This document shows positions 33,273 to 39,687 of a stretch of DNA of 64,000 bases, piece after piece. A program made the translations under genes and the position numbers. Within the stretch, counting starts at the first letter, position 1, and every line of letters begins with the position of its first letter. The DNA lies in the NCBI RefSeq assembly GCF_026410505.1, contig NZ_JAPMIU010000003.1, positions 186,001 to 250,000 on the forward strand. The letters run 5' to 3'. The notes beneath the pieces are model-generated. The model had not been told where the DNA came from. It did not search any database and was given only the letters and a program-made list of their open reading frames with translations. Origin of the DNA: Frateuria hangzhouensis (lineage in GTDB: Bacteria > Pseudomonadota > Gammaproteobacteria > Xanthomonadales > Rhodanobacteraceae).

Positions 33273-33908
33273 ATGGCTTACGAGCTGATCATTTTCGATC
33301 TGGACGGCACGCTGGCCGATTCGTTCGGCTTCTTCGTGAGCGTCCACAACCGGCTGGCCGACCGCCACCGCTTCCGGCGCATCGAAAGCGGCGAGATCGA
33401 GGATCTGCGCGGACGCTCGGCGCGCGAGGTGATGCGCCACGTCGGGCTGCCGCGATGGAAACTTCCCTTGGTCGCGCGCAGCTTCGTGCGGCTCATGCGC
33501 GAGGCGGACGTGCGCCTGTTCGAAGGCGTCGACGACGCGCTGGTGCAGTTGCATGGGAGCGGTACGACGCTCGCGCTGGTTTCCTCCAATGCCGCCGGCA
33601 ACTGCCGCCGCATCCTCGGCGACGCCCATTGGCAGCGCTTGGCCCATGCCGAATGCGGCGCGTCGATCTTCGGCAAGCAACGGCGCATCGCCCGCGTGCT
33701 GAACGCCACCGGCACGCCGCCACGGCGGGCGCTCTACGTGGGCGACCAGCCCACCGACGCCGAGGCGGCCCGCGCCGCGGGCGTGGCCTTCGGCGCCGTA
33801 GCCTGGGGTTATGCCACGCCGCAGTCGCTGCAGGACCTGCAACCGGACCACCTGTTCCGCCACGTCGCCGAACTGGTCACTCTGTCCCGCACCGCGGACA
33901 CCTTGTAG
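33273..33908 (+). CDS. HAD-superfamily phosphatase, Gph-like (211 aa)
   Basis: Motif I 'IIFDLDGTLADSFG' holds the nucleophile and acid Asp; motif II is 'LALVSSNAAGN'; motif III/IV are Lys in 'FGKQRR' and 'ALYVGDQPTDAEAARAAG'. The helical cap between motifs I and II puts it with phosphoglycolate-phosphatase-like HAD enzymes. Substrate is not determined by sequence. It starts 50 bp after the Cys-rich peptide and overlaps a REP element at its 3' end (stop inside TTGTAGGAG). Confidence 0.88.
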   Translation: MAYELIIFDLDGTLADSFGFFVSVHNRLADRHRFRRIESGEIEDLRGRSAREVMRHVGLPRWKLPLVARSFVRLMREADVRLFEGVDDALVQLHGSGTTLALVSSNAAGNCRRILGDAHWQRLAHAECGASIFGKQRRIARVLNATGTPPRRALYVGDQPTDAEAARAAGVAFGAVAWGYATPQSLQDLQPDHLFRHVAELVTLSRTADTL

Positions 33909-33990
33909 GAGCCCACTTGTGGGCGATGCTCGTGCTCTGGTCGACCATCCAGAGCCCGAGAGCATCGCCCACAAGCGCGGGCTCCTGCAA
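33903..33990. repeat. REP-like inverted pair, family 1
   Basis: TTGTAGGAGCCCACTTGTGG.. and ..GCATCGCCCACAAGCGCGGG form facing arms. The first arm supplies the TAG stop codon of the HAD gene. The remaining ~210 bp to the cytochrome gene at 34205 contain no gene and should hold its promoter. Confidence 0.82.
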
Positions 33991-34204
33991 AGGCGGGACG
34001 CGCGTGCCTTCGATGCCGGCGTCAGCCCACACACACGGTGCGATTCCGCAGGCGACACCAGATACCTGAAGCCAGCTGGCCCCAAGCCGTGCATGCCGTC
34101 TTCACGCCGCAGGGTCTATTGCCCTCGGCGGGTGCAGGCGGGCGCGTCGACCGCCGGCCTGGGGGCAGGGGTCCCACGTTGCAGGTTCACGCTAGCCATC
34201 GGGG

Positions 34205-35341
34205 ATGTCAGCCATGCGTGCCATACCGCTTTCGTTCGCGGCCGTGCTGTCCGTCGCAGTGGGGCTTGGCGGTGTGCTGTGGTCCGCGGCGCGCGCGCAG
34301 TCCACGCAGGGTGACACGCCGGCGCCGGCGACGAGCCAGTCGTCGGGCCGGCTGAGCCAGTCCGACATCGCGCGCATGCTCCCGGCCACCGACATGGGGG
34401 CGGGCGATTTTCGCAAGGACAACCCGCACCTGCACCAGGCCGACGAAGGCCCCGCTACCCCGTTCGATGCCGCGCCGATCCCGCACAACCCGTTGGCGCC
34501 ACAGGCCGATCCGGTGGGCGCGAGAACCTGCATCGCCTGCCATTCGCTGGAGAACGTGCGCGCCTCGCACTCGCTGCACGTACAGTCGTTCCGGGCCGGC
34601 GCTGCCAACAGCGGTCCGCAGGCGGCCTGCGAAAGCTGCCACGGGCCGGGCTCGGAACATGCGAAAAACCCGGCCCTGGCCGGCTCGATCATCGCCTTCA
34701 CCCACGGCGCCGCGGCCGACGTGCACACCCAGACCGCGGTGTGCCTGGGCTGCCATGCCGGCGGCGCGCGCCAGCACTGGCTCGGCTCGGTGCACGAGGC
34801 ACGCGGGCTGTCGTGCAGCGACTGCCACAACCCGATGGCGCGGTTGTCGCCCGAGGGCGTGCTGGCCAAACCCTCGATCAACGAGGTCTGCGCCACCTGC
34901 CACAAGGACATCATGGTCAAGTTCCACCGGCGCTCGCACATGCCGCTGCCGGAAGGGCAGATGGCCTGCACCGACTGCCACAACCCGCACGGCACGCTCA
35001 CCCGCCCGCTGCTGAAAACCGACACGGTCAACGAGACCTGCTACACCTGCCACGCCGAGAAGCGCGGGCCATTCCTGTTCGAGCACGCGCCCGTGCGCGA
35101 GAGCTGCCTCAACTGCCACGACCCGCACGGCTCCAACCAGCAGACCCTGCTGGTGGCACCGCTGCCGATGCTCTGCCAGCAGTGCCACACCATGACCCGC
35201 CACCCGAACGACCTGCAGGTGCCGACCAACCTCGGCCGCGGGCCGAACCCGGACGAGCGCCTGATGGGCCGCGCCTGCCTGACCTGCCACACCAACATCC
35301 ACGGCTCGAACAACCCATCGGGCTCGCGCTTCCACAAATAG
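34205..35341 (+). CDS. decaheme c-type cytochrome, DmsE/MtrA/PioA family (378 aa)
   Basis: A Sec signal ('FAAVLSVAVGLGGVLWSAARA') and a roughly 75-residue low-complexity linker precede exactly ten CXXCH heme sites between residues 109 and about 363: CIACH, CESCH, CLGCH, CSDCH, CATCH, CTDCH, CYTCH, CLNCH, CQQCH, CLTCH. Repeated 'C.DCHNPHGTLTRP' and 'CHDPHGSN' segments match the DmsE/MtrA family of periplasmic decaheme proteins that insert into an MtrB-type barrel as a molecular wire. The length (about 378) lies above MtrA (about 333). ATG at 34205 or 34214 may start translation. It is the first gene of a probable three-gene operon. Confidence 0.92.
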   Translation: MSAMRAIPLSFAAVLSVAVGLGGVLWSAARAQSTQGDTPAPATSQSSGRLSQSDIARMLPATDMGAGDFRKDNPHLHQADEGPATPFDAAPIPHNPLAPQADPVGARTCIACHSLENVRASHSLHVQSFRAGAANSGPQAACESCHGPGSEHAKNPALAGSIIAFTHGAAADVHTQTAVCLGCHAGGARQHWLGSVHEARGLSCSDCHNPMARLSPEGVLAKPSINEVCATCHKDIMVKFHRRSHMPLPEGQMACTDCHNPHGTLTRPLLKTDTVNETCYTCHAEKRGPFLFEHAPVRESCLNCHDPHGSNQQTLLVAPLPMLCQQCHTMTRHPNDLQVPTNLGRGPNPDERLMGRACLTCHTNIHGSNNPSGSRFHK

Positions 35342-35366
35342 AACCAACCGGGGGGAGGAGCCAACC

Positions 35367-37955
35367 ATGCGCACCATCCGACCCATGTCCTGCGCCATCG
35401 TGCTGGCCTTGCTGGCCGGAGCCCCGCTGGCGCACGCCAGCGACGGCAGCGACACCATGCGCGTGGGCGACATGCAGTACGGCAACGGGCTGGATCCGCG
35501 CGGCTGGTCGCCGTTGATGACGCCCGATGCCGACGGCATGTCGTGGCTGCATCCGGGCATGTTGCGCACGCCCAGCGGCGCGCTCTACCCCTACCCGTAC
35601 ACGCTCGCCGGCAAGCCGTTGGGGCAGGGCGGCGACTGGACCTACTGGGGCCTGCTGCAACTGGGCTACATCCACCTGGGTGGCGACAGCGACGCGGAAT
35701 TCTTCCGCCAATACACCGACTGGAAGAACGGCGCGGTGCTGGGCCTGTGGGCGATGGGCTTCGACAACCGAGCGACCGGCGGCTACGTGGAGTTCCGCGG
35801 CAGCCGCATCAGCGGCGACGACCAGTACTACCGCGTGCGCGCCGGCCGTTACGGGCACTACAAGTTCCAAGCCTTCTACCGCGACATTCCGCACACGGTG
35901 TCCACCAACGCGTTCCCGATCTGGCAGGGCATCGGCGGCGGCGACCTCACCCTGCCGGCCGGGCTCACCCCGGGCGGCAGCACGATCGCGGCCGTGCAGC
36001 AGGCCTCCGACGCCGCGCCCCGGCGCACCATCGCCCTGACCCGCACGCGTAGCGGCCTGAGCCTGGAAGGCCAGCTCTACCGCGACTGGATCGGCTTCGC
36101 TTCGATCACCAACGAGGAGCGCGACGGCACCCGCCTGTGGGGTGGGCCGATGTTCTTCAATTTCGCCTTTCCCGGCACCGGCTCGCCGTTCGGCGGCAAC
36201 GGCGGCGTGCTGGAGACGGTGCGCCCGATCGACTTCACCACCACCGACGTCAACCTGGGGCTGCGGCGGGTCGGCAAGGTCTGGCATTTCAACGCGCTCT
36301 ACAACGGCTCGTTCTTCCGCGACCACAAGAGCACGCTGGACTACCAGAACCCGTTCCTGATCACCAACGTGATCGGCGTGCCCAACGCCGGTCCGGTAGT
36401 TGACGGCGAATACTCGCTGGAGCCGGACAACGACTATCACAACCTGCGCCTGGAACTGTCGCGCCAGCTCAAGTGGCGCGGCGAGCTCTCGCTGGCGGCG
36501 GCCTACGGCACCATGCGCCAGGACGACGCCCTGCTGCCGCCGGTCAACTGCACCGGCACGCTCGGCTTCGCGGCCGGGCCGTTCCAGCAGCTGATCCCCT
36601 GCGAGCTGTGGAACACGCCGGCGGCTCTTTCGCGCACCCATGCCAATGCGCGCATCGACACCCAGTTGTTCGACGCCAAGATCACCTTCCACCCCGGCCG
36701 CAACTTCGGCTGGCACGCGGACCTGCGCTACTACAACGAGGACAACAAGACCGATTACCTCGCCTACAACCCGCTCACCGGGCAATACGGCTACATCTCC
36801 GAGAACGGCTCGCAGGGCAGCGTGGTGCCGGGCGAGGTGGGCATCTTCGACAACGGCTACTACGCCACCTCCAACGTGCAGGTCGCCAACGTGCCGTTCG
36901 GCTACCGCGATACGCTGCTGGAACTGGGCGCGGACTGGAACGTCGGCACGTCCGATGCGCTCAGCCTGGTCTACACCTTCGACCACAACCAGCCGCGCCA
37001 CCGCGAGCGCACCCGGCTGGACGAGCAGCGCATCAAACTGAGCTGGGTCAGCCGTTCGCTCGGCGATGCCACCGTGCGCGCCAGCTTCGAGTACGGCGAC
37101 CGCGATGGCGGTGCCTACAACCACGATCCGTACGAGGCCTACTACTCGGCCTCGCTGCCCGGCTACACCCCCGCCGACGGCATCGCGCCGACCGCGTTCA
37201 CCGTCGATGCCATGCGCAAGTACGACATGAGCGACCGCAAGGAAACCAAGGCGCGCGTGATCCTGATCTACCCGCTGGCCGACAGCAGTACCGTCTCGGC
37301 CACCTTCTACGGCAGCCGCGACCGCTACGACGCACGCATCGGCCGCCAGGACACGCGCAGCACCGGCTTCACCGGCGAGTGGGACTGGCAGCCCGCGCCG
37401 CACACCAACGCCAGCGTCTACATCGGCGCCGAGACCACCCGGCTCAAGCTGGCCAACGTCGCCGACAACGAAGCCATCGTCGGCGCCCCCGGCAGTGAAG
37501 ATCCGTCCTTCGGCGGCCCGCTTTACCCGTTCGAAAACTACTGGCACGACCTGGACCGCGAGCGCGACTACAACGCCGGCATCACCTTCGCGCACGACTT
37601 CGGGCGGGTGAAGCTGGACCTGGCGTGGAATTACACCCAGTCGCTCTCGCAACTGGACTACGACTATGCCTCGCCCGGCGCACTGACCCATCCGGAAGCG
37701 GCGCCGCTACTCGATGGCAGTTTTCCCGACAACCACTACCGCTCGAGCACCTTCGACGCCAGCCTGAGCTTCCCGATCACCGCCAGCGTCGGCGTGCGGC
37801 TGTTCGGCCGCTACCAGAGCGGCAGTTTCCTCGACTGGCATTACCTGGGCTTCGACGACACGCTGGTCTACGACCACCGCATCTACACCGACCGCGGCCC
37901 GCAGATGCATTACCGCGCCGCGCTGGTCGGCGCCATGCTCAGCATCCGGCTGTGA
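35367..37955 (+). CDS. MtrB/PioB-family outer-membrane beta-barrel (862 aa)
   Basis: A signal peptide ('[14 protein letters not shown]') is followed by a long beta-barrel with alternating hydrophobic and polar residues and many aromatic girdle residues. '[20 protein letters not shown]', '[20 protein letters not shown]' and repeated '..[19 protein letters not shown]' strands match MtrB/PioB proteins, the sheath that holds a decaheme cytochrome across the outer membrane. It starts 25 bp after the decaheme gene with GGGGGAGG upstream. The N-terminal CxxC of Shewanella MtrB is absent, as in PioB-like proteins. Sequence ends in '..AMLSIRL'. Confidence 0.9.
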
Positions 37956-37965
37956 GAGGTACTGC

Positions 37966-38679
37966 ATGAACCGCCTACTGCTCCCACTGCTGCCCGTGCT
38001 GGCCTTCGCCTGGCTGGCGCTCCCGGCGCGTGCCAGGGCACAGGCCGACGCCGTGCCGGTCGATACTCCTCAGGCGGCCTTCCTCGACCTGCGCGCGCAG
38101 GCGCCGATCCGTGGCGATGCTGGCGCAGGCGAGGCCAAGGCGACCGTCTGTGCCGCCTGCCATGGCCCGCAAGGCATCGCGATCGCACCGAACTTTCCCA
38201 ACCTGGCCGGGCAGTCGGCCACCTACCTGTACGTGCAGCTGAAGGCTTATCACCAGGGCCAGCGCAGCGATCCGGTGATGAACGGCCAGGCCGCGCCGCT
38301 CAGCGACGCCGACATGCGCGACCTGGCGAGCCACTACGCCGCGCTCGCACCCAAGCCCGCTGGCATCGCCGACGCCGGCTCGCGTGGCGCACAGCTCTAC
38401 CTGGCCGGCGACCCGGCCCGCGGCATCCCGCCCTGCCAGGGCTGCCACGGCAGCGATGCGCAAGGCCCCCGCGTGCAGCCGGGCAGGGCGGCCCACCCGC
38501 CGTGGTCCACCTTTCCGCGCCTGCGAGGGCAATCGGCGATCTACCTCACCAAGCGGCTGACCGACTTCCGCCACGGCATCCGCCCCGGCACCAGCAATAC
38601 ACGGATCATGGAAGGGGTGGCCAGCACGCTGGACGACGCCGACGTGCAGGCCCTTGCCACCTACCTCTCCAGCCTCTGA
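37966..38679 (+). CDS. diheme cytochrome c, c4-like (237 aa)
   Basis: A signal peptide is followed by two homologous class I cytochrome c domains: CAACH at residues 62-66 and CQGCH at 157-161. Each is followed by '[21 protein letters not shown]' / '[21 protein letters not shown]', the cytochrome c4 signature, and Met ligand regions ('DPVMNG', 'TRIMEGVA'). It starts 10 bp after the MtrB-type gene. Its most likely job is to shuttle electrons in the periplasm between the decaheme conduit and an inner-membrane oxidase or reductase. The direction of flow cannot be read from sequence. Confidence 0.9.
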
Positions 38680-38681
38680 CC

Positions 38682-38748
38682 CGTAGGATGGGCTTCAGCC
38701 CACCGGCTTCTCCGCAAGAACGGCTGGTGGGCTGAAGCCCACCCTACG
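38682..38748. repeat. REP-like inverted pair, family 2, after the cytochrome operon
   Basis: CGTAGGATGGGCTTCAGCCC.. and ..GGGCTGAAGCCCACCCTACG face each other. The element sits within 5 bp of the stop of the diheme cytochrome gene, where it may stabilise or end the transcript. Confidence 0.82.
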
Positions 38749-38859
38749 CTCCTGAGGCACCTTGCCGGGCTCCTACGGGGAGCGGGGCGGCTTGGCTTGG
38801 CCATCGCGCCATGGCCGGTGACTCACCCAGCTCGGTTGACGACCAAAAATGGCGCCGGA

Positions 38860-39687
38860 TCAGCGGGCTTCCGAGGTGCTGGCCACCCGCGCAGCGTCGA
38901 ACGCAAAGATGGATTGCTCGATGACGGCGTCCAGATTGCGCCGGTGCCATTCGCGCTCGAAGGGCGCCGGTTCGACGCCGGGCGCGATGCAGGCCTCGAT
39001 CGGAATCGCGCCGATGTGCCGATCGACCTCGCGGGCTCGTCCGTTGGCGCGGATATCGACCACGGCTTCCTGCAGCCGATCCAGATAGTGGATCGCGTTG
39101 TCCAGGACGGCGACCGGAAATCGGCCCATGTGTCCGCCAATGACCGTGCCCCGGCCCCACTGCCGCATCCGGCCGATCGCGCCGCGGATCGACGCGGGGT
39201 CGGCCCTGGACAGGTAGACGGTGTTGCCGACGATGTTGTCGCCCGCGCACACCAGGTCGGCCGCGGGCACGTCCACGCTGAGGTGGTCCATGGTCTTGCC
39301 GGGGTTGTGCAGCAGGTGCAGGTCCAGTGATCCCCAGCGGATCGTCATCGCGCTGTCGAACACCACCCGCGGTTCCCGGTAGAGCTCGTCGGCCCGCCGG
39401 TTCTGCGAAAGAAAGCTGTGCCGGTGGTGCCGGTGTGCGATCGTCAGCGCGTCGGGAAAGAGCGACATGCCGGCGATGTGGTCACTCATGAAATGCGTTG
39501 CCGCGACGATCCGCACCGTCTTGCCCATGTCGTCGCACAGCACGCGGCGCAGCCAGCGCGCATCGTCCAGGCTGCCGAGCGAGTCGACCAGCAGCACGTC
39601 GTCGCCGTCCAGGAATGCGGTGGCGACCGACTCATAGTCGTTACCGACGAACATCAGTACGTTGGAACCAAGCTGTTCGAATCTCAC
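38860..39687 (-). CDS. MBL-fold hydrolase-like protein with altered metal site (275 aa)
   Basis: Metallo-beta-lactamase fold: 'VLLVDSLGSLDDARWLR', 'ATHFMSDHIAGMSLF', 'LLHNPGKTMDHLSVDVP', 'LVCAGDNIVGNTVYL' and 'VIGGHMGRFPV' line up with the five metal motifs. The first motif should read HxHxDH but here is H-F-M-S-D-H, with Met in place of the second His, so one metal site is altered. The rest of the ligand set is intact. The GTG at 39687 has AAGG 8 nt upstream; a longer frame to 39738 is possible. It is divergent from a GcvA-like LysR gene with a shared operator-like dyad. Confidence 0.78.
   Translation of the reverse strand: MRFEQLGSNVLMFVGNDYESVATAFLDGDDVLLVDSLGSLDDARWLRRVLCDDMGKTVRIVAATHFMSDHIAGMSLFPDALTIAHRHHRHSFLSQNRRADELYREPRVVFDSAMTIRWGSLDLHLLHNPGKTMDHLSVDVPAADLVCAGDNIVGNTVYLSRADPASIRGAIGRMRQWGRGTVIGGHMGRFPVAVLDNAIHYLDRLQEAVVDIRANGRAREVDRHIGAIPIEACIAPGVEPAPFEREWHRRNLDAVIEQSIFAFDAARVASTSEAR

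Follow-up and report, generated by a model that had tools for sequence, protein, structure and literature searches.

A possible PioA-like electron uptake conduit with a cytochrome c4 partner in Frateuria hangzhouensis and its relatives

The 64,000-nucleotide stretch of Frateuria hangzhouensis DNA analysed here (the window; NCBI RefSeq assembly GCF_026410505.1, contig NZ_JAPMIU010000003.1, positions 186,001 to 250,000 of the forward strand) contains a cluster of three genes, designated A, B and C, that encode a decaheme cytochrome c, an outer-membrane barrel protein and a diheme cytochrome c4 (Table 1). The genes lie on one strand, with 25 bp between A and B and 10 bp between B and C, and a signal peptide can be discerned by eye at the start of each product. 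All 20 cysteines of gene A fall within its ten CXXCH motifs; 20,000 shuffles of A gave a mean of 0.09 motifs and a maximum of three. Its heme motifs are invariant across 36 aligned homologues, and the protein scores 253 bits against the NCBIfam profile TIGR03508 (DmsE-family decaheme; cut-off 192); in hmmscan it also scores 31.7 bits against PF03264 (cut-off 24.1). Gene B scores 316 bits against Pfam MtrB_PioB (PF11854; cut-off 23) and falls slightly under the cut-off of NCBIfam TIGR03509 (228 versus 240 bits). Gene C consists of two class I heme domains similar to those of solved cytochromes c4 (6q2u, 130 bits; 1etp, 115 bits; residues 50-236 aligned); as a PdsA (NCBIfam NF049874) it reaches 49 bits, under the cut-off of 330. 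Open reading frames (ORFs), motif counts and profile matches thus confirm the first-pass annotation of the locus as a protein with ten CXXCH sites, a matching barrel and a two-heme cytochrome in tight succession, and the match to solved structures supports its view of the third gene as a c4-like shuttle.

Table 1. Genes of the cluster and the two methionine codons of gene A, in window positions
Feature	Position	Strand	Description
Gene A	34205..35341	+	Decaheme cytochrome c, PioA/MtrA family, 378 aa, 10 CXXCH
Gene B	35367..37955	+	Outer-membrane barrel, MtrB/PioB family, 862 aa, 0 CXXCH
Gene C	37966..38679	+	Cytochrome c4, diheme, 237 aa, 2 CXXCH
Met211 codon	34835..34837	+	Column of MtrA His167; third residue past the fourth CXXCH; putative Met heme ligand
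Met246 codon	34940..34942	+	Column of MtrA His200; SHMP, not SHHP; putative ligand, less certain than Met211

An AlphaFold2 model of gene B, built on 39 sequences, has a predicted template-modelling score of 0.71, a mean predicted local distance difference test score (pLDDT) of 70 and 26 strands of at least ten residues; 26 is also the strand number reported for MtrB (PMC7198977). The corresponding model of gene A was poor (pLDDT 36.6) and was left unused. In Foldseek, the first PDB match of the B model is 6r2q_B, which is MtrB (E 4.5e-37, TM-score 0.88 by target length), and the runner-up is an iron transporter barrel (E 6.6e-9). The decaheme cytochrome and the adjacent 26-strand MtrB/PioB-family barrel, as modelled, place the pair in the MtrAB/PioAB/MtoAB superfamily. 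The outer-membrane conduit proposed in the first pass is supported by the decaheme and MtrB/PioB profile matches, by the 26-strand model and by 6r2q_B as its top match. Substitution rates indicate purifying selection on all three genes: the nonsynonymous rate (dN) is below the synonymous rate (dS) for A, B and C against each of three relatives (Frateuria, Fulvimonas and Rhodanobacter), for example 0.052 versus 0.292 for A against Frateuria terrea. The G+C content is 68.8% in the cluster and 68.3% in the window. A scan of 33850-38900 gave no promoter-like site and three terminator-like sites, against 1.9 expected. The trio is a real, conserved outer-membrane conduit.

A scan with gene B identified 42 named contigs of Lysobacterales (Frateuria, Fulvimonas, Dyella, Rhodanobacter, Luteibacter, Dokdonella and Tahibacter, as well as genome bins). 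Gene A lies upstream of B in all 42, and a C-like sequence lies downstream in 41 (contig L038 ends inside B); ORF calling was crude and overlooked gene A at a few loci. Among named relatives, Frateuria terrea is the closest (90% for A and 86% for B). Matches to gene A (E up to 0.001) occur in 40 of 99 genomes, the own genome included, among them 23 of the 59 genomes of the family and four of the six of the genus, and the TIGR03508 cut-off is passed by 25 of 369 sampled genomes of the class. Plasmid records gave one distant match, in Photobacterium, which was taken as an MtrCAB reference. With 42 named contigs and 23 of 59 family genomes, the conduit is clearly no peculiarity of a single genome. 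In two loci (L042:8831-17701 and L048:7367-17005) the trio occurs twice in tandem, the copies having diverged.

Trees of A and of B each recover one long-stemmed group of 23 rows, comprising the family and three order-mates. Its support is 100/99 in the first tree, for which 77 of 102 rows were used (17 of the 42 named loci plus references), and 100 by the Shimodaira-Hasegawa-like approximate likelihood ratio test in a quick tree of 72 rows that was thinned in the same way and omits L146, L180, L182, L186 and short rows. The trees include no sequence of PioA, MtoA or Shewanella oneidensis DmsE.

All hemes of Shewanella MtrA are bis-His (PMC7198977). In the aligned stretch MtrA has 12 His outside the heme motifs, ten of which are near-invariant in the family, and these ten we take to be the distal heme ligands. 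Gene A keeps His at eight of the ten columns and has Met at two, those of MtrA His167 and His200. Met is found at both columns in all 45 clade proteins (window included), in all three proteins of a sister group and in both of two proteins with long N-termini from another class of the phylum; His is found at each of the two columns in 51 of the 52 other homologues. In a wider set, limited to proteins with exactly ten CXXCH (L183, L213 and L215 were set aside), the first column holds Met in 52 of 53 Met-type proteins and His in all but one of the 62 others; HM stands at the second column in all 53 Met-type proteins and in one of the 62 others. The Met-type exception is L219 (L219:6489-7655), with Gln at the first ligand column in a protein otherwise of Met type. 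The single HM among the others belongs to L149 (L149:6011-6907), a decaheme protein with His at the first column and Met at the second only, whose gene adjoins a 4-heme gene; it branches beside the Met clade, as if Met246 had arisen first, although its long branch makes this only a hint. At L147 (L147:5909-10997), Ile replaces His at the first column; there, as judged by eye, the decaheme and barrel genes are followed by a 4-heme gene, a gene for an iron-sulfur-like protein and one for a further membrane protein.

A tree that includes the two other-class proteins (57 rows; nine long or odd rows omitted and others thinned; L194 and L195 included, L216-L219 not) places all Met-bearing rows on one side of a branch with support of 100/97, recovered in 100% of 200 bootstrap trees. 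The Met-bearing clade takes in L194 and L195, the long-N-terminus proteins from another class, and Shewanella MtrA lies outside it. One order of that other class has both types, Met-/Gln-type proteins having SHMP and His-type proteins SHHP; the residues before the first heme number 118-239 in the former and mostly 48-89 in the latter (one has 210). The 'DmsE/MtrA' label of the first-pass annotation stands at the level of the superfamily, as the TIGR03508 match indicates, but is too general for gene A, which belongs to the Met clade apart from Shewanella MtrA; TIGR03508 spans the whole superfamily, the Met-type L061 and L194 scoring equal to gene A.

Judged from the alignment, Met211 and Met246 may ligate heme and raise its potential. 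A one-residue shift that would make His245 the ligand instead of Met246 is conceivable but less likely, since SHHP against SHMP in homologues argues against it. The title of Li et al. 2020, a paper on the ligands of PioA, names His/Met ligation, and its abstract reportedly describes two His/Met hemes as marking PioA homologues across over 30 genera; in that case the ligand feature was already known, and some of the genera treated here may be among them. Reported titration ranges are -400 to -100 mV for MtrA, -360 to -90 mV for DmsE, -400 to +100 mV for MtoA and -400 to +250 mV for PioA (PMC12203936).

In gene A the signal peptide (by eye) is followed by about 75 residues up to the first heme at residue 109. 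The median offset of the first heme is 116 residues in the clade, 177 in six other-class Met-/Gln-type proteins and 54 in 62 others. Extension length was rejected as a sole marker: the bis-His protein L214, from another class, has a frame of 210 residues before its first heme. The three sister proteins have offsets of 40-46 though they are Met-type. PioA-like proteins have been described by an N-terminal extension, as uptake conduits (PMC6831781). Gene A is thus similar to PioA and would probably group with it, a comparison drawn from published descriptions of PioA.

Neighbourhoods were scored for 43 of 44 clade loci and for 49 other loci (L043 and seven other loci were lost, A and B not both being found). 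Full 5-kb flanks are available for 33 of the 43 and for one of the 49, so that counts for the others are lower bounds. None of the 43 clade loci has a large multiheme gene (at least eight hemes and 550 residues) or a 4-heme gene (150-260 residues), and a c4 gene lies downstream in 41; among the others, at least 25 of 49 have a large multiheme gene and at least ten a 4-heme gene. This clade thus typically has a c4 but no MtrC- or CymA-like genes, although a c4 partner is not unique to it.

A deeper branch of the clade comprises 19 of the 42 named loci (B identity 40-44%), of which 12 add a gene for a high-potential iron-sulfur protein (HiPIP), a cupredoxin-like gene or both, located after B on the same strand. 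HiPIP genes occur in eight of the 42 (L042, L047, L050, L051, L055, L056, L059 and L061), as do cupredoxin-like genes (L046, L049, L050, L053, L054, L056, L059 and L061). The profiles for both were built from these loci alone, which makes absences weak; Pfam confirms HiPIP in all three loci tested (L061, L050 and L047) and cupredoxin in two of three (L061 and L054). The cupredoxin of L049 was rejected, as it is matched only by the locus-built profile and Pfam gives none. Neither gene was detected in the other 23 named loci, some of which have short flanks. At L061 (L061:12549-14021), and also at L050, L056 and L059, decaheme, barrel, cupredoxin-like, c4 and HiPIP genes form one row, in which the cupredoxin-like gene lies between B and c4 and the HiPIP gene after c4. 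Near the c4 gene, ccmF and a redoxin gene, the latter taken to be CcmG, follow at L052 (L052:13487-16053, Pfam-tested), and ccmF and a redoxin gene occur by eye at L181 (L181:533-3057). At L168 (L168:2485-5898), a gene 27 bp ahead of a Met-type decaheme gene encodes a protein of 1137 residues that has two CXXCH and a part resembling a beta-propeller. In 21 of the 42 named loci, the region upstream of A carries a divergent gene whose best match among the window's genes is a LysR regulator, and Pfam confirmed LysR in both loci tested; in the window, no divergent LysR-like gene was found upstream of 34205.

The own genome is 99.94% complete. A profile search of it with TIGR03507 (OmcA/MtrC) gave no match, nor did one with PF03264 (NapC/NrfH/CymA); the latter search is stricter than hmmscan, and since gene A passes PF03264 in hmmscan yet is absent from the genome search, a weak relative could be missed. 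The TIGR03507 cut-off is passed by none of the 59 family genomes and by two of the 99 overall, both from another family. The first-pass statement that no MtrC/OmcA or CymA gene lies beside the cluster is borne out and extends, for MtrC/OmcA and NapC/CymA, to these genome-wide searches; of the partners to be sought in the whole genome, the surface cytochrome and the CymA family gave no match, while a terminal oxidase (cbb3) is present. A cbb3 subunit and cytochrome c1 are encoded, RuBisCO gave no match in the own genome, and a HiPIP gene is located away from the cluster. On contig C4 (L063:2793-7948), genes for an NrfD protein, a fused molybdopterin-type/iron-sulfur protein and a pentaheme protein lie in a row, a set that looks like an alternative complex III. 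A genome-wide CXXCH scan, which is not a census, gave 191 sites (97 + 94), against 73 + 58 for a reversed-pattern control.

We consider it rather probable that A, B and C form a PioA-like uptake conduit that feeds c4 and a cbb3-type oxidase in a heterotrophic soil bacterium without RuBisCO. Decaheme A, with its chain of ten hemes, would sit inside barrel B, and the pair would accept electrons from an extracellular donor without a surface cytochrome; candidate donors are dissolved Fe(II), minerals that contain it, or reduced shuttles, humic matter for example. Gene A would pass the electrons to the diheme c4, and from there they would reach a cytochrome c oxidase, perhaps cbb3. We infer that flow is inward, what the donor is, and that electrons move from A through C to the oxidase, the simplest route from what the genome has. 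High-potential carriers include cytochromes c4, HiPIPs and cupredoxins, which A with its Met changes would be suited to feed. The 'uptake or exchange' of the first-pass annotation can thus be sharpened towards uptake on the strength of the two Met at putative ligand columns and the high-potential carriers of the relatives.

Several observations weigh against this reading. A c4-like gene follows A-B on the same strand in at least six of the 49 other loci, four of which have a large multiheme gene, so c4 alone does not tell direction, and a diheme carrier, PdsA, sits with MtrCAB, whose MtrAB can be driven in either direction (PMC8805035). MtoD is reported not to bind MtoA (PMC13390432); thus, a neighbouring carrier need not be the partner of the conduit. 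The two putative Met ligands are assigned to alignment columns rather than to numbered hemes, and in the Frateuria/Rhodanobacter/Dyella branch, window included, no HiPIP or cupredoxin was detected beside the cluster. HiPIP was rejected as a marker of the conduit, being common without gene A; it occurs in 74 of 99 genomes, with or without that gene. According to PMC11366258, one Rhodanobacter isolate of culture KS does not oxidise Fe(II) by itself, and proteins resembling CymA and MtrB occur in Rhodanobacter bins.

A rival reading is outward flow. Electrons from quinol would pass by way of bc1 or alternative complex III to c4 and cross A-B to reach a high-potential acceptor outside the cell, for example Mn(IV) or chelated Fe(III), much as MtrCAB works with PdsA. 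The own genome has cytochrome c1 and the alternative-complex-III-like set, gene C weakly matches PdsA (49 bits, cut-off 330), soluble Fe(III) is reported to be reducible by MtrAB without MtrC (PMC7198977), and Rhodanobacter is reported with MtrB- and CymA-like proteins (PMC11366258). We nevertheless regard outward flow as unlikely, because the genome lacks a NapC/CymA or MtrC match, no such genes lie near the 43 scored clade loci, and the two Met columns and the HiPIP and cupredoxin of relatives fit carriers that are too oxidising to reduce most acceptors outside the cell. A device for stress or redox balance, which would remove, for example, Fe(II) or reduced phenolics outside the cell or serve as electron overflow with no contribution to growth, would suit the patchy distribution (23 of 59 family genomes, four of six in the genus), a heterotroph without RuBisCO and the divergent LysR-like gene upstream in 21 of 42 named loci; however, the conserved carriers and purifying selection on A, B and C suit sustained electron flow and, while not excluding such a device, leave it quite improbable. 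The NCBIfam name of A, 'DmsE family', might suggest a DmsEF-type conduit serving an extracellular molybdoenzyme such as dimethyl sulfoxide reductase. That profile is superfamily-wide (L061 and L194 score like A), and no DmsAB-like gene occurs among the annotated neighbouring ORFs here or in relatives, the other ORFs of the window being unannotated; we judge this role extremely improbable.

Uptake through A, B and C may, more tentatively, be part of a respiratory, non-phototrophic PioA-like chain with exchangeable high-potential carriers that is spread across Rhodanobacteraceae, in which the Met pair would mark uptake conduits. In such a chain c4 would be constant, HiPIP and cupredoxin would be added in the Tahibacter/Dokdonella-type branch, and the hosts, often soil heterotrophs, would draw extra electrons from Fe(II), minerals and humics. 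Among the matches listed, no description of the cluster appears in the literature on Rhodanobacter, Rhodanobacteraceae or Xanthomonadales, a scope within which most subscription papers do not fall. The nearest in print is the detection of Cyc2-, MtoAB-, CymA- and MtrB-like proteins in Rhodanobacter, a genus that dominates some Fe(II)-oxidising cultures (PMC11366258); a Rhodanobacter of culture KS is reported to have Cyc2 as well as a porin with multicopper oxidase (PMC5566968). To the question whether members of Rhodanobacter and related genera are themselves Fe(II) oxidisers, the cluster contributes a three-gene target together with a residue-level prediction, two His/Met hemes. If the prediction is true, Met at the two columns would help to separate uptake from export conduits, a distinction that the name 'DmsE family' does not make.

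The cluster can be compared with four known systems. It shares the MtrAB core with MtrCAB and its partners PdsA and CymA/NetBCD (Shewanella, Aeromonas and Vibrio), some of which also have a diheme periplasmic carrier (PMC8805035), but it differs in lacking an MtrC or CymA match, in having Met at two His columns and in forming a separate clade. With MtoAB(D)-CymA/ImoA of Sideroxydans lithotrophicus ES-1 it has in common the decaheme and barrel without MtrC, a periplasmic c cytochrome in the cluster and a proposed role in uptake (PMC13390432). Unlike that system, compared here for MtoA by description only, no CymA-type gene was found here and c4 replaces the monoheme cytochrome; MtoAB-like loci with a 4-heme gene (L139, L140 and L154) have His at both columns, unlike gene A. 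PioABC of Rhodopseudomonas palustris TIE-1 likewise combines a decaheme and a barrel without a surface cytochrome, and gene A may share with PioA an extension before the first heme; HiPIP occurs in eight of the 42 related clusters, and His/Met ligation is reported for PioA. However, the third gene here is a c4 and PioC a HiPIP, so the operon is not pioABC, and the host is not known to be phototrophic and has no RuBisCO match. The first heme lies at residue 109 in gene A, whereas residues 1-270 of PioA are reported to be without heme motifs (PMC10654088). The rus operon of Acidithiobacillus ferrooxidans (Cyc2, the c4 Cyc1 and rusticyanin) also sets a c4 beside an outer-membrane electron entry, together with a cupredoxin, as in the Tahibacter-type branch (PMC10654088); the entry there is the fused monoheme porin Cyc2, whereas here it is a decaheme-barrel pair.

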